In this document: positions 11,106 to 41,643 of the stretch, one piece after another | Position numbering within the stretch: position 1 is the stretch's first letter | How the letters are laid out: every line of letters begins with the position of its first letter | Assembly: GCA_002700095.1 (NCBI GenBank) | Contig: PACL01000062.1 | Coordinates: 38,281 to 102,280 of the forward strand | Reading direction: 5' to 3' | From: Fulvimarina sp. | Lineage (GTDB): Bacteria; Pseudomonadota; Alphaproteobacteria; Rhizobiales; Rhizobiaceae | DNA: 64,000 nucleotides | Translations under genes and position numbers: made by a program | The notes under the pieces: model-generated | The model's input: only the letters and a program-made list of their open reading frames with translations | What the model was told of the DNA's origin: nothing | Databases searched by the model: none

Positions 11106-11391
11106 CGACCCTCGTCCTTGGTTCGGCTGACGATGTCAGAGCACCGACCCGCGGGCTCATTGCTCAATCGCAATATCTGTATCTAGTCAGCGCACCGGAG
11201 CACGGTCGACCGGACGCTGCAACGCGTGCCTGGCTGCTTGCGCTGGCTTTACCCCCTAAGGTTTCCCGGCTGCTTTCCACCCAACCCAGAAATTCCTCTC
11301 GCGCCTCCCGCCCGATTGCGTGTGGCCCCGGACGCCCCTAAATTCGATCGATTCGCGTGTATCTCTCGGTCTTTCGAACTCGGAGCGGCCC

Positions 11392-14300
11392 ATGTCTGCG
11401 ACTGCAGCTTCCACCCGCGCGGGCGGCAACTTTCCGCCGCCCTTCTGTGCGCCGTTCTCCATCGACGACCAGGCGGCGGTCTCGGCGCTGCTCAAGGCAT
11501 CGAGCCGCTGGACCCATGACGAGGACAAGGTCGACGAGCGCGCCCGCGCGCTGATCGTCGGCATCCGCAAGGCGGCCGGCGGCATCGGCGGCGTCGAGGA
11601 TTTTTTGCGCGAGTTCGGGCTTTCGAGCCGTGAGGGCCTCGCGCTGATGATCCTGGCAGAGGCGCTGCTGCGGGTTCCCGACGCGGCGACGCAGGACCGG
11701 CTGATCGAGGAGAAGATCGGCGCCGGCGACTGGGCCCATCACGAGGGTGGCGAAGACCGTCTGATGACCGCGGCCTCGGCCTGGGCGCTGGGCATCTCGG
11801 CGCGGATCATCCGGCCCGGCGAGACGCCGCAGGGGGTGATGGCGGGTCTCGTCAAGCGCCTCGGCGGGCCTGCCGTGCGCCAGGCGACGCGCCAGGCGAT
11901 GCGCTTCCTCGGCCGGCACTTCGTCCTCGGCGAGACCATCGAGGACGCGCTGGAGCGGGCGCGGGCGTATGAATCCAAGGGCTATCGCCATTCCTACGAC
12001 ATGCTGGGCGAGGGCGCCCGGAGCATGGAGGACGCCGAGCGCTACTATCGCTCCTATGCAGGCGCGATCGAGAGGATCGGCCGCAAGGCCGGCAACAAGA
12101 CGCTGCCCGACCGGCCGGGCATTTCGGTCAAACTCTCGGCGCTGCATCCGCGCTACAATCCGCTGCAGCGAGAGCGGGTGCTCGAGGAACTGCTGCCGAA
12201 GGTGATCGCGCTCGCCGAGCAGGCGCGCGGCTACGATCTCAACCTCACCATCGACGCCGAGGAGGCCGAGCGCCTCGAACTCTCCCTCGACGTCATCGAC
12301 GCGCTTGTGAAGCGTTTCGACTTCAAGGGCTGGGAGGGCTTCGGCCTCGCCATCCAGGCCTACCAGAAGCGTTCGCTCGCCGTCATCGAGCATGTCGACG
12401 CGCTCTGCGAGGCGGCCGGCATCCGGATGATGGTGCGCCTCGTCAAGGGCGCCTATTGGGACACCGAGATCAAGCACGCCCAGGAAAAGGGCCTTGAAGG
12501 CTATCCGGTGTTCTCGCGCAAGCCGGCGACGGATCTCTCCTATCTCGTCTGCGCCAAGGCGCTGCTCGACCGCCGGGCGCGGATCTATCCGCAGTTCGCC
12601 ACCCACAACGCGCTCACCGTCGCGACCATCCTCGAAATGGCCGGCAAGGACCCGACCGGCTTCGAGTTCCAGCGCCTGCACGGCATGGGCGAGGCGCTCT
12701 ACGAGACGCTGCGCCGCTCCGGGCCCAAACCCGTCGCCTGCCGCATCTATGCGCCGGTCGGCGGCTACCGTGACCTCCTCGCCTATCTCGTCCGCCGGCT
12801 GCTCGAAAACGGCGCCAACTCCTCCTTCGTCGCGATGGTCGGCGACGAGGACATTCCCGTCGACGACCTCCTCCAGCGGCCCCGGTCGATGCTCGAAGCC
12901 GGCCCGGCGCGGCATCCGAAGATCGGCCTGCCGAAGGATCTCTTCTCGCCGCGCCAGAACTCCGCCGGCATCGAGACAGGCGACCGGCGGGCGCTGGGCA
13001 GCCTGATCTCCGAGCGCCGCCGGGTCTCGGTCGACAGGCTGGAAGCGCGCTGCGAGGCGGCGGCGGCCAAGGGCGGATCGACGCCGGTCGCGGTTCTCTC
13101 GCCGGTGGATGGCGCAAGGCTCGGCACCAGCCATCATCTGTCGGCCGAGGCCGCCACCACCCTGGTGTCGGAGGCGGCGAAGCATTGCCGCTCGGCCGAG
13201 GCCGTGCCGGCGGCGCGGCGGGCCGAAGCTCTGCGCAAGGCCGCCCAGATGATGGAAGCGAAGGAGGCCGAACTCCTCGCCATCCTCGCGGCCGAAGGCG
13301 GCAAGACGCTGGACGACGGCATCGCCGAAGTGCGCGAGGCGGTGGATTTCCTGCGCTTTTACGCCGACGAGGCGATGCGGCTCTTTGCCGCGCCGGTGCC
13401 GCTGCCCGGGCCGACCGGCGAGGAGAACCGCCTGACCTACCGCTCGCGCGGCGTCGCGGTGGCGATCTCGCCGTGGAACTTCCCGCTGGCGATCTTCACA
13501 GGACAGGTCGCCGCGGCGCTCGCCGCAGGCAACGTCGTCATCGCCAAGCCGGCCGAGCAGACGCCGCTGATCGCGGCGAAGGCCGTAGAGCTGCTGCACG
13601 AGGCGGGCTTTGCCAGGGAGCACCTTTATCTCGCGCCCGGCGACGGCAGCACCGGCGCGGCGCTGACCTCCCACGATCTCACCGCCGTCGTCGCCTTCAC
13701 CGGCTCGACGGAGACCGCCTTTGCGATCAACCGGGCGCTCGCCGCCCGCAACGCGCCGATCGCGCCGCTGATCGCCGAGACCGGCGGCATCAACGCGATG
13801 CTCGCCGACGCCACGGCGCTACCCGAACAGGTGGCGGACGACGTGGTGATGTCGGCCTTCCGCTCGGCCGGCCAGCGCTGCTCGGCGCTGCGCCTCCTGT
13901 TCCTGCAGGAGGACGTCGCCGACAAGATCCTGGAGATGATCGCCGGCGCGGCAAAGGAGTTGACCGTCGGCGATCCGCGCGAGCTTGCCACCGACATCGG
14001 CCCGGTCATCGATGCCGAACAGCTTGCCATGCTGAGGGACCATGTCGAGCGCATGGGGCGCGAGCAGAAGATCCGCTACAGCGGCGAGGTTCCGGCGGAG
14101 CTGGCCGGCAAGGGGCACTACTTCGCCCCGCACATCGTCGAGCTCGACCGGCCGGAGGCGCTGGACCGGGAGGTGTTCGGCCCGGTGCTGCATGTCGTGC
14201 GCTGGAAGGCGCGGGACTTCGACAGGATTCTCGACGCCATCGATGCCACGGGTTTCGGCCTGACGCTTGGCGTGCACAGCCGGATCAACCAGACGGCGGA

Positions 14301-14520
14301 AAATGTCATCGCACGCCTAGCCGTCGGTAACCTGTATGTGAACCGCAATATCATTGGTGCAATCGTTGGGTCCCAACCCTTTGGCGGATCGGGTCTTTCC
14401 GGCACAGGGCCGAAGGCCGGCGGCCCCAATTATTTGGCACGTTTTGCTCGCGAACAGGTGATTTCGGTCAATACTGCCGCCGCCGGAGGTAACGCCAGCC
14501 TGATTGCGATGGAATCGTAG
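11392..14520 (+). CDS. putA: Bifunctional proline dehydrogenase / P5C dehydrogenase
   Basis: Two-step oxidation of proline to glutamate: an FAD-dependent proline dehydrogenase barrel, then an NAD-dependent aldehyde dehydrogenase with substrate channelling. The 1042-residue chain lacks the N-terminal ribbon-helix-helix DNA-binding domain of enteric PutA. PRODH signatures (about 180-460) include YDMLGEGARSMEDAERYY, LSALHPRYNP, MVRLVKGAYWDTEIK and FEFQRLHGMGE. P5CDH signatures (about 540-1030) include ISPWNFPLAIFTGQ, AETGGINAM with the general-base Glu796, and FRSAGQRCSALR with the catalytic Cys830. It ends shortly after QPFGGSGLSGTGPKAGG, as in short PutA proteins. The start at ATG 11392 has GGAG 7-10 bases upstream; upstream codons look non-coding. 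No AsnC/Lrp regulator is adjacent. Confidence 0.96.
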   Translation: MSATAASTRAGGNFPPPFCAPFSIDDQAAVSALLKASSRWTHDEDKVDERARALIVGIRKAAGGIGGVEDFLREFGLSSREGLALMILAEALLRVPDAATQDRLIEEKIGAGDWAHHEGGEDRLMTAASAWALGISARIIRPGETPQGVMAGLVKRLGGPAVRQATRQAMRFLGRHFVLGETIEDALERARAYESKGYRHSYDMLGEGARSMEDAERYYRSYAGAIERIGRKAGNKTLPDRPGISVKLSALHPRYNPLQRERVLEELLPKVIALAEQARGYDLNLTIDAEEAERLELSLDVIDALVKRFDFKGWEGFGLAIQAYQKRSLAVIEHVDALCEAAGIRMMVRLVKGAYWDTEIKHAQEKGLEGYPVFSRKPATDLSYLVCAKALLDRRARIYPQFATHNALTVATILEMAGKDPTGFEFQRLHGMGEALYETLRRSGPKPVACRIYAPVGGYRDLLAYLVRRLLENGANSSFVAMVGDEDIPVDDLLQRPRSMLEAGPARHPKIGLPKDLFSPRQNSAGIETGDRRALGSLISERRRVSVDRLEARCEAAAAKGGSTPVAVLSPVDGARLGTSHHLSAEAATTLVSEAAKHCRSAEAVPAARRAEALRKAAQMMEAKEAELLAILAAEGGKTLDDGIAEVREAVDFLRFYADEAMRLFAAPVPLPGPTGEENRLTYRSRGVAVAISPWNFPLAIFTGQVAAALAAGNVVIAKPAEQTPLIAAKAVELLHEAGFAREHLYLAPGDGSTGAALTSHDLTAVVAFTGSTETAFAINRALAARNAPIAPLIAETGGINAMLADATALPEQVADDVVMSAFRSAGQRCSALRLLFLQEDVADKILEMIAGAAKELTVGDPRELATDIGPVIDAEQLAMLRDHVERMGREQKIRYSGEVPAELAGKGHYFAPHIVELDRPEALDREVFGPVLHVVRWKARDFDRILDAIDATGFGLTLGVHSRINQTAENVIARLAVGNLYVNRNIIGAIVGSQPFGGSGLSGTGPKAGGPNYLARFAREQVISVNTAAAGGNASLIAMES

Positions 14521-14551
14521 CAACCCGGACACAGTCGGGCGAGGGAACCCG

Positions 14552-14733
14552 TGCTACATTGTCCGAGTTAAGTCAGGGCTTGCAGTGGCCGCCGCTTTCC
14601 TCCCATGCGGACCGGCCGCCTATCCTGACCGAGTAGCAAGCAGTGGCAAACGGCATATCCTCCTGATGCCCGAAGCCGACATTGCGCGTAGAAGAAGAGC
14701 CCGGCGATCTCCTCCCACGCCGGGCTTTTCTTT
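14552..14733 (+). ncRNA. Candidate small RNA with three anti-Shine-Dalgarno hairpin loops
   Basis: Three hairpins follow one another in the putA-fhs gap. Outer arms TGCTAC (14552-14557) with GTAGCA (14633-14638) and GTCAGG (14572-14577) with CCTGAC (14624-14629) enclose hairpin 1, stem GGCCGCCGC (14587-14595) against GCGG and CGGCC, with loop TTTCCTCCCAT. Hairpin 2 has arms GGCAT (14652-14656) and ATGCC (14666-14670) with loop ATCCTCCTG. Hairpin 3 is a 9-bp terminator with loop ATCTCCTCCCA. Each loop exposes CCTCC, the anti-Shine-Dalgarno core. This is the pattern I recall for alphaproteobacterial cuckoo/CcsR and alpha-r14 (NfeR1) RNAs, which bind ribosome-binding sites of target mRNAs. The 5' end is inferred from pairing, not from a promoter. 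Confidence 0.72.
14698..14733 (+). terminator. Rho-independent terminator of the small RNA
   Basis: Perfect 9-bp stem AGCCCGGCG (14698-14706) with CGCCGGGCT (14718-14726), an 11-nt loop, then TTTTCTTT. It could also end readthrough from putA. Confidence 0.85.
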
Positions 14734-14877
14734 GTCTGCCAAGCAGTTACGCCAGCAATACCGTCATCTCGCGACCTGTCTTCGACATCCCCTGGTTTTC
14801 CGGCGCATCGGCCTGTGGCCATGCGCAGGCGCCTTGCGTATGCTGCTGCCAAAATCATCGACCGTAGGGAGACAGCC

Positions 14878-16557
14878 TTGAGCGCATTCAACTCCGACAT
14901 CGCCATTGCGCGCGCCGCGAAGAAGAAGCCGATCAAGGAGATTGCCGCGCGCCTCGGCATGTCGGAGGAGGACATCGTCCCCTACGGCCACGACAAGGCC
15001 AAGGTCTCGGCGCCGTTCCTGAAATCGCTCGAGAGCCGTCCCGACGGCAAGCTGATCCTCGTCACCGCCGTCAACCCGACGCCGGCCGGCGAGGGCAAGA
15101 CGACGACGACGGTCGGCCTCGGCGACGGGCTGAACCGGATCGGCAAGAACGCCCTCATCTGCATCCGCGAGGCCTCGCTCGGGCCCTGCTTCGGCGTCAA
15201 GGGTGGGGCCGCCGGCGGCGGCTATGCCCAGATCGTGCCCATGGAGGAGATGAACCTCCACTTCACCGGCGATTTCCATGCGATCACCACGGCGCACAAC
15301 CTGCTCTCGGCGATGATCGACAACCATATCTACTGGGGCAACGATCTGCAGATCGACAGTCGCCGGGTGACGTGGCGCCGCGTTCTCGACATGAACGACC
15401 GGGCGCTGCGCCAGATCACGGCTTCATTGGGCGGCGTCGCCAACGGCTTTCCCCGCGAGACCGGCTTCGACATCACCGTCGCCTCCGAAGTGATGGCGAT
15501 CCTGTGCCTGTCGAACGACCTGAAGGATCTGGAGAAGCGCCTCGGCGACATCATCGTCGCCTATCGCCGCGACAAGACCGCGATCACCGCCCGCGATCTC
15601 AAGGCCGACGGCGCGATGGCGGTGCTCCTGAAGGACGCGATCCAGCCGAACCTCGTCCAGACGCTGGAGAACAACCCGGCCTTCGTCCATGGCGGGCCCT
15701 TCGCCAACATCGCCCATGGCTGCAACTCCGTCGTCGCCACCAAGGCGGCGCTGAAGCTCGCCGACTACGTCGTCACCGAAGCCGGCTTCGGCGCCGATCT
15801 GGGCGCGGAGAAATTCTTCGACATCAAGTGCCGCAAGGCCGGGCTGAAGCCCTCGGCAGCGGTCGTCGTCGCGACGGTCCGGGCGATGAAGATGAATGGC
15901 GGCGTCGCCAAGGCCGATCTCGGCGCCGAGAACGTCGAGGCGGTGAAGGCCGGCTGCGCCAATCTCGGCCGCCATGTCGAGAACGTCAAAGGCTTCGGCG
16001 TTCCCGTCGTCGTCGCGATCAACCACTTCTCCGCCGATACCGACGCCGAGATCCAGGCGGTCAAGGACTATGTCGCGACCCTCGGCACCGAGGCGATCGT
16101 CTGCCGCCACTGGGCGGAGGGCTCGGCTGGGATCGAGGGCCTCGCCCACAAGGTGGTGGAACTCGCCGATGGCGGCACCGCCGACTTCAAGCCGATCTAT
16201 CCGGACGAGATGGGCCTGTTCGAGAAAATCGAGACGGTGGTCAAGACGATCTATCGCGGCTCGGAAGTGACGGCTGACAAGTCGGTGCGCGACCAGCTCG
16301 CCGCTTGGGAGGAGGCCGGCTACGGCCATCTGCCGGTCTGCATGGCAAAGACCCAGTATTCCTTCTCCACCGACCCGACCAGGCGCGGCGCGCCGACGGA
16401 CTTTTCCGTCCATGTCCGCGAGGTGCGGCTGTCGGCCGGCGCCGGCTTCGTCGTCGCCATCTGCGGGCAGATCATGACCATGCCGGGCCTGCCCTCGCAG
16501 CCTGCGGCCGAATCGATCTATCTCAACGAGCAGGGCGAGATCGAAGGCCTGTTCTGA
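14878..16557 (+). CDS. fhs: Formate--tetrahydrofolate ligase
   Basis: Makes 10-formyltetrahydrofolate from formate, ATP and THF, feeding purine synthesis and one-carbon pools. The 559-residue chain has the ATP-binding loop [18 protein letters not shown] (about 66-83), [46 protein letters not shown], and the late stretch [17 protein letters not shown] chose TTG at 14878, which has GGGAGA six bases upstream and gives the family's usual length (about 556-560). An ATG at 14815 would add 21 unrelated residues. Only 23 bp separate it from the ABC ATPase downstream, so the two are likely co-transcribed. Confidence 0.96.
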
Positions 16558-41361: not shown

Positions 41362-41456
41362 ACGCCGCGGGGGATGCACGCCGTTGCAGAATGTGCATGG
41401 CTGCCATGTATCGGATGCTCTGGCTGCAGGACGTCGATCGTGGGAAAAGCTTTTCA

Positions 41457-41528
41457 GGCAAGCAACTCCTCCCAAACGTTTGCCGAACTTTGAGAGCCCG
41501 TCCGGATCCTCCCCCGGACGGGCTTTTT
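41457..41528 (+). ncRNA. Second candidate anti-Shine-Dalgarno small RNA (two hairpins visible)
   Basis: Hairpin A: GGCAAGC (41457-41463) pairs with GTTTGCC (41478-41484), one G-U, and its 14-nt loop contains CTCCTCCC at 41466-41473. Hairpin B: GCCCGTCCGG (41496-41505) pairs perfectly with CCGGACGGGC (41514-41523), loop ATCCTCCC, followed by TTTTT, which makes it a rho-independent terminator. Both loops expose the anti-Shine-Dalgarno core, as in the RNA at 14.6 kb. The RNA may begin further upstream (AAAAGCTTTT and CATGGCTGCCATG lie at 41445 and 41397), so the 5' end is open. The terminator could also serve the gamma-glutamyltransferase gene. Confidence 0.7.
41495..41528 (+). terminator. Rho-independent terminator (GGT gene and/or small RNA)
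   Basis: 11-bp perfect stem (AGCCCGTCCGG against CCGGACGGGCT), 8-nt loop, T-run to 41528. Confidence 0.85.
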
Positions 41529-41643
41529 CGTTCGGGCCGCCTTTTGTGGCGCGTGCCGTCGATGCCGCGGGCCTTCACGCGGACAGGGACATCCGTCGGC
41601 TCAGCCGCCCGGTGCCGGTCCGCCGCCGCAGGCCGATCGCCGA

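Follow-up and report, generated by a model that had tools for sequence, protein, structure and literature searches.

The window, i.e., the whole 64 kb stretch of DNA that was analysed, carries two genes on the + strand that flank the element described here. Upstream lies putA (11320–14520), encoding a proline dehydrogenase/aldehyde dehydrogenase with the Pfam domains Pro_dh, Aldedh and Pro_dh-DNA_bdg, and downstream lies fhs (14878–16557), encoding a formate-THF ligase (Pfam FTHFS), the start of which is likely to be the TTG at 14878 as inferred from the sequence. The gap between them (14521–14877) harbours three hairpins with CCTCC in their loops (14572–14733). Based on fold, covariation and covariance model R1, we propose that they belong to a small RNA of ~167 nt on the + strand (14567–14733), with a predicted start and with a terminator-like hairpin as its end. 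Among named genomes, the first match of the PutA protein was Aurantimonas sp. 22II-16-19i (97% identity), followed by Jiella species, which assigns the window to the Jiella/Aurantimonas group.

The coordinates of the three CCTCC motifs agreed with the preliminary description. Hairpin 1 (14572–14629) consists of the outer stem GTCAGG/CCTGAC (14572–14577 with 14624–14629) and an inner stem (14585–14597 with 14605–14619) and exposes UCCUCCC in its loop; the loop of hairpin 2 (14644–14679) holds UCCUCCU; and hairpin 3 (14691–14733) is terminator-like, with CUCCUCCC inside an 11-nt loop. The CCTCC motifs are located at 14599–14603, 14659–14663 and 14711–14715, the third being surrounded by CTCCTCCC, and the loop sequences read UUCCUCCC, UCCUCCUG and CUCCUCCC. 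Folding of 14567–14733 yielded the three hairpins with all CCTCC motifs unpaired (MFE −70.6, z = −3.56), which was equalled by none of 200 shuffles, and the longer stretch 14540–14745 resulted in z = −2.29, with 4 of 200 shuffles equally good. Hairpin 3 had been described as a perfect 9-bp terminator with a T-run. Its G+C core of 8-9 pairs is indeed present, but the whole stem comprises 16 pairs (14691–14706 with 14718–14733), and the T-run is interrupted (TTTTCTTT) and lies partly within the stem. Hairpin 3 is missing from the output of the terminator scan, probably because its loop of 11 exceeds the permitted 8.

The element was found in all 10 genomes of the genus that were examined, in nine of them by DNA search and in J. 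flava (G002) by synteny together with the model. CCTCC occurs in all three loops of seven copies and the CTCC core in all three loops of nine; CTCCC replaces CCTCC in loop 2 of J. avicenniae and in loop 1 of J. flava, and J. mangrovi has lost the motif of loop 2. The longer CCTCCC is kept in loop 3 of all ten copies and in loop 1 of nine. RNAalifold applied to the 10-genome alignment gave the same three hairpins and, in addition, a short upstream helix of 5 pairs showing no compensatory change, which was left out of the pair counts. Over the 38 hairpin pairs, 89.9% of the cells were paired (98.8% in hairpin 3), a figure that is favoured by deriving the structure from the tested alignment itself. 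Changes on both sides were observed at 15/38 pairs compared to 7.4 ± 1.7 in shuffles (0/500), which ignore relatedness, and 4 to 8 in slid controls, which retain it. Compensatory changes are present in all three hairpins. The relatives thus bear out what the preliminary description had proposed to look for, namely conserved loop motifs with compensated stems.

The two outer arms described earlier as perfect pairs fared differently. GTCAGG/CCTGAC changed on both sides at five of its six pairs and is supported. The letters of TGCTAC/GTAGCA (14552–14557 with 14633–14638) are present, but not a single compensatory change was detected in the 10 genomes and the arm did no better than its own shuffles, so that it was rejected as RNA structure. 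As TGCTAC is part of the conserved promoter-like block, the transcript probably extends from 14567 to 14733.

Outside the genus, covariance model R1 matched 120 of 247 family genomes at E ≤ 0.001, many of these matches being weak or restricted to the terminator part. Among the 26 non-genus loci examined, putA and/or fhs adjoin the match in five, from three other genera: both genes in G231, G073 and G074, putA in G120 and fhs in G168. These five include four of the five best non-genus R1 scores; the remaining one, in G248, appears by eye to be an ar14-like RNA at another place. Also by eye, the motif core was recognized in three loops in G074 and G120 and in two loops in G231, G073 and G168, where the terminator loop is without motif. 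Two loci, one from a MAG (L025) and one from Aureimonas glaciei (L044), contain putA with no such RNA visible by eye behind it.

The promoter-like block of the window (14531–14560, + strand; ACAG-N20-TAnnnT) ends in TGCTACATT, resembling an extended −10 element. In the form ACAG-N19-21-TAnnnT it precedes the RNA in 13 of the 15 putA/fhs-linked loci, the spacer being N20 and in one case N21; G074 and G120 are without it. The version TGnTAnnnT was found in 10 of the 15, which are the 10 Jiella-group loci. The promoter scan listed no TTGACA-type promoter. An EcfG-type promoter (GRAAM-N16-18-xGTY) was considered and is not claimed, as it fits 10/10 Jiella-group loci and 0/5 of the others.

Regarding its class, the architecture is in line with cuckoo RNAs (Reinkensmeier and Giegerich 2015) as described in citing papers, i.e., hairpins with anti-Shine-Dalgarno (anti-SD) loops and freely varying stems that are found using a thermodynamic matcher. 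Rfam at gathering scores reported nothing in the window. In a permissive search, ar14 (RF02344) was the best match with 32.7 bits and E = 2.7e-4 (651 bases), so that the covariance search suggested earlier named a family, but with a score below the cut-off of 58.8; all 10 genus copies likewise remained below it (22.6-40 bits, E 1.2e-5 to 0.085). For ar14 (NfeR1/SmelC397 of Sinorhizobium meliloti), PMC10746234 and PMC7143759 describe three hairpins with anti-SD loops, variable stems and predicted targets that are mostly transport genes. The RNA between putA and fhs shares the three hairpins, the anti-SD motif left unpaired in each loop and the variable stems. It differs by its sub-cut-off score, by a longer hairpin 1 with outer stem, by a CCUCC(C) core instead of CCUCCUCCC repeated identically in all three loops, and by being a single copy beside putA/fhs. 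Furthermore, the RpoD promoter motif given for NfeR1 in PMC10746234 (CTTAGAC-N17-CTATAT), searched in exact form with spacers of N16-18, had 0 matches in the window. Since score, loop motif and promoter do not agree, we did not file the RNA as ar14; the earlier comparison to ar14 and cuckoo RNAs holds for the general design of an anti-SD hairpin RNA and fails for strict ar14 membership.

Higher-scoring ar14-like copies, two or more close together, are present in all 10 genus genomes, with one above the cut-off in seven. In the window's genome these array copies reach 49-56.3 bits, and three of them follow in tandem behind a 47-residue protein with Pfam domain DUF1127; they were seen on contigs C10 and C20, perhaps representing one locus due to assembly overlap. 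A DUF1127-like protein accompanies the arrays in nine of the 10 genomes, the exception being G001 (motif search, with Pfam on one). This arrangement resembles CcsR1-4 of Rhodobacter sphaeroides with CcaF1/DUF1127; in PMC10253847, the name CIN1 locus refers to CcsR-like RNAs located next to DUF1127 genes, and CcsR RNAs are reported to modulate C1 metabolism and stress defence. In contrast to CcsR1-4, which were compared by description as given there, the RNA studied here is a single unit, and its direct upstream neighbour is putA instead of a DUF1127 gene. SmelA075 and SmelA099, described with three and four hairpins carrying CCUCCUCCC in PMC3927594, share the loop design according to that description and belong to other S. 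meliloti loci. AbcR1/2 (ar15), for which PMC7143759 gives anti-SD motifs and solute-binding protein mRNAs as targets, differ in that they carry two CU-rich motifs and show partial homology to SuhB, and no such match was among the 7 listed in the permissive Rfam search. The RNA is probably a diverged, solitary cuckoo-type anti-SD RNA and not a member of ar14. RNAs of this kind are already known from rhizobia, and the present one would be a new and divergent relative of them. Within titles and the beginnings of abstracts in a limited literature collection, no paper was found that connects an RNA of this type with putA, Jiella or Aurantimonas.

As far as the sequences tell, structure, loops and promoter-like block are conserved, and the element recurs beside putA/fhs and outlasts a broken or missing putA. 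We consider it likely that it constitutes an independent gene for a trans-acting anti-SD small RNA with its own promoter, which would block translation of several mRNAs. Alternatively, the hairpins might form the 3′ UTR of putA; read-through and processing would then yield the RNA during proline catabolism. This would be in accordance with putA, or a C-terminal piece of it, being located directly upstream in 14 of the 15 linked loci, and with the terminator scan, in which no + strand entry falls between the stop codon of putA and the RNA. However, RNA and promoter-like block are retained in G001 (L011), where within 1.5 kb upstream only about the last 147 PutA residues match, in pieces, in G007 (L014), where within the same distance only about the last 80 match at low identity, and in G168, which has no putA within 3.2 kb upstream. 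The putA frame breaks in G001 may partly be errors, as its assembly completeness is 84%. Overall, an origin from the putA transcript appears rather unlikely.

A somewhat smaller chance is given to a decaying leftover ar14 copy that has no present function. In its favour, the RNA scores 32.7 bits compared to 49-56.3 for the arrayed copies in that genome, and the loop 2 motif has been lost in J. mangrovi; yet this is opposed by the compensatory changes in all three hairpins and by the near-complete retention of CCTCCC in loops 1 and 3. That the RNA acts in cis on fhs, as its leader or attenuator, is very improbable: fhs directly follows in 13 of the 15 loci, but is not found within 7.5 kb downstream in G005 and is separated from the RNA in G120 by a gene encoding RTX repeats together with a polysaccharide lyase domain, and a terminator-like hairpin plus ~144 nt lie between the RNA and the fhs start. 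Cis control of fhs was rejected on the basis of these two genomes. As the RNA persists in two genomes where fhs is not adjacent and in three where putA is broken or missing, neither neighbour is needed, and it consequently looks like an independent gene; the position between proline and one-carbon genes pointed out in the preliminary description is correct, but dependence on either neighbour is not borne out. Finally, chance hairpins can practically be dismissed, because, even though hairpins are common in G+C-rich sequence and 44 with a CCTCC loop and at least 5 pairs occur on both strands of the window, 14572–14733 is the only triple run compared to 0.044 expected (Poisson estimate), in line with the earlier argument that chance would hardly place the motif in every loop, and conservation and covariation contradict such an origin.

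As an independent small RNA gene, the element would have a promoter of its own immediately behind putA and be transcribed from ~14567 to the end of the terminator-like hairpin at 14733. Its three hairpins would present CCUCC(C) unpaired, and each loop could pair with Shine-Dalgarno sites of the GGGAGGA type, thereby keeping ribosomes off several mRNAs. These would probably come from genes for solute-binding proteins and from further genes of uptake or catabolism. The mode of action would most likely be that of NfeR1 (ar14), which is an Hfq-independent transcript of ~123 nt. Transcription, RNA–RNA pairing, targets and repression are all predictions of this model.

Candidate targets were searched for with TGGGAGGA-N3-10-ATG, TGGGAGGA being complementary to UCCUCCCA of loops 1 and 3, which resulted in 46 sites compared to 3 for the backward control. 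The first 30 of the 46 sites were examined, giving 27 ORFs of at least 60 residues, nine of which encode solute-binding proteins and 12 transport proteins in all. The control AAAGGAGA had 22 sites (backward 2) with 20 ORFs, two of which look like one protein; none encodes a solute-binding protein and one a transport protein. The second control, CGGGAGGA, had 57 sites (backward 14), of which the first 30 were examined; 6 of 26 ORFs were assigned to solute-binding proteins and 8 of 26 to transport, 25 ORFs having been scanned and L228 being counted unscanned as no match. Fisher p values for solute-binding proteins were 0.006 for TGGGAGGA versus AAAGGAGA, 0.029 for CGGGAGGA versus AAAGGAGA and 0.54 for TGGGAGGA versus CGGGAGGA. 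As TGGGAGGA is not different from CGGGAGGA, the signal fits any cuckoo-type loop or simply strong SD sites. Sites of the GGGAGGA type thus appear to lean to uptake genes, but strong SD sites alone could explain this lean, and nothing in the signal separates the RNA from its array relatives. Duplex energies between the loops and the ribosome sites of fhs and DUF1127 (−8.5 to −12.1 kcal/mol) did not single out a target. Solute-binding protein genes are plausible targets, and TctC, DctP and Peripla_BP_4 genes (L193, L170, L194) are among the candidates.

More tentatively, and with considerable doubt, a separate, vertically inherited anti-SD RNA lineage with its own promoter may have resided at putA-fhs since before the genus Jiella arose, outliving putA in some genomes and running beside the DUF1127-linked multi-copy arrays, and might place nutrient uptake under a brake that answers to another signal, for instance proline or the osmotic state. 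If so, two anti-SD systems would share targets and respond to different cues. With this RNA, the anti-SD hairpin RNAs gain a solitary, syntenic branch, which is missed by the curated Rfam model at its cut-off. Within a single genome, a set of similar array copies can be compared with a diverged single copy that has another promoter-like block; owing to this natural comparison, it becomes directly testable why a bacterium maintains numerous RNAs sharing one loop.

Several further elements were observed. The arrays at L001:1344-1990 (G000:C10) and L099-L124 show a CIN1-like arrangement with a DUF1127 small-protein gene, and in L001 the array loops could pair with the GGAGG ribosome site of this gene. 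A second anti-SD element in the window (41436–41529, + strand) is located 75 bases after a gamma-glutamyltranspeptidase gene and consists of two hairpins with the loops CTCCTCCC and TCCTCCCC (CCTCC at 41468 and 41508). It scores 38.5 bits with the ar14 model, and single sites with similar scores are present in G002, G004, G008 and G009. A weak ar14 match of 26.8 bits at C38:28312-28430 on the − strand (L239, G000) was rejected, as it is the antisense of the strong SD site of a solute-binding gene; the antisense of strong SD sites is thus a source of false positives for the ar14 family.
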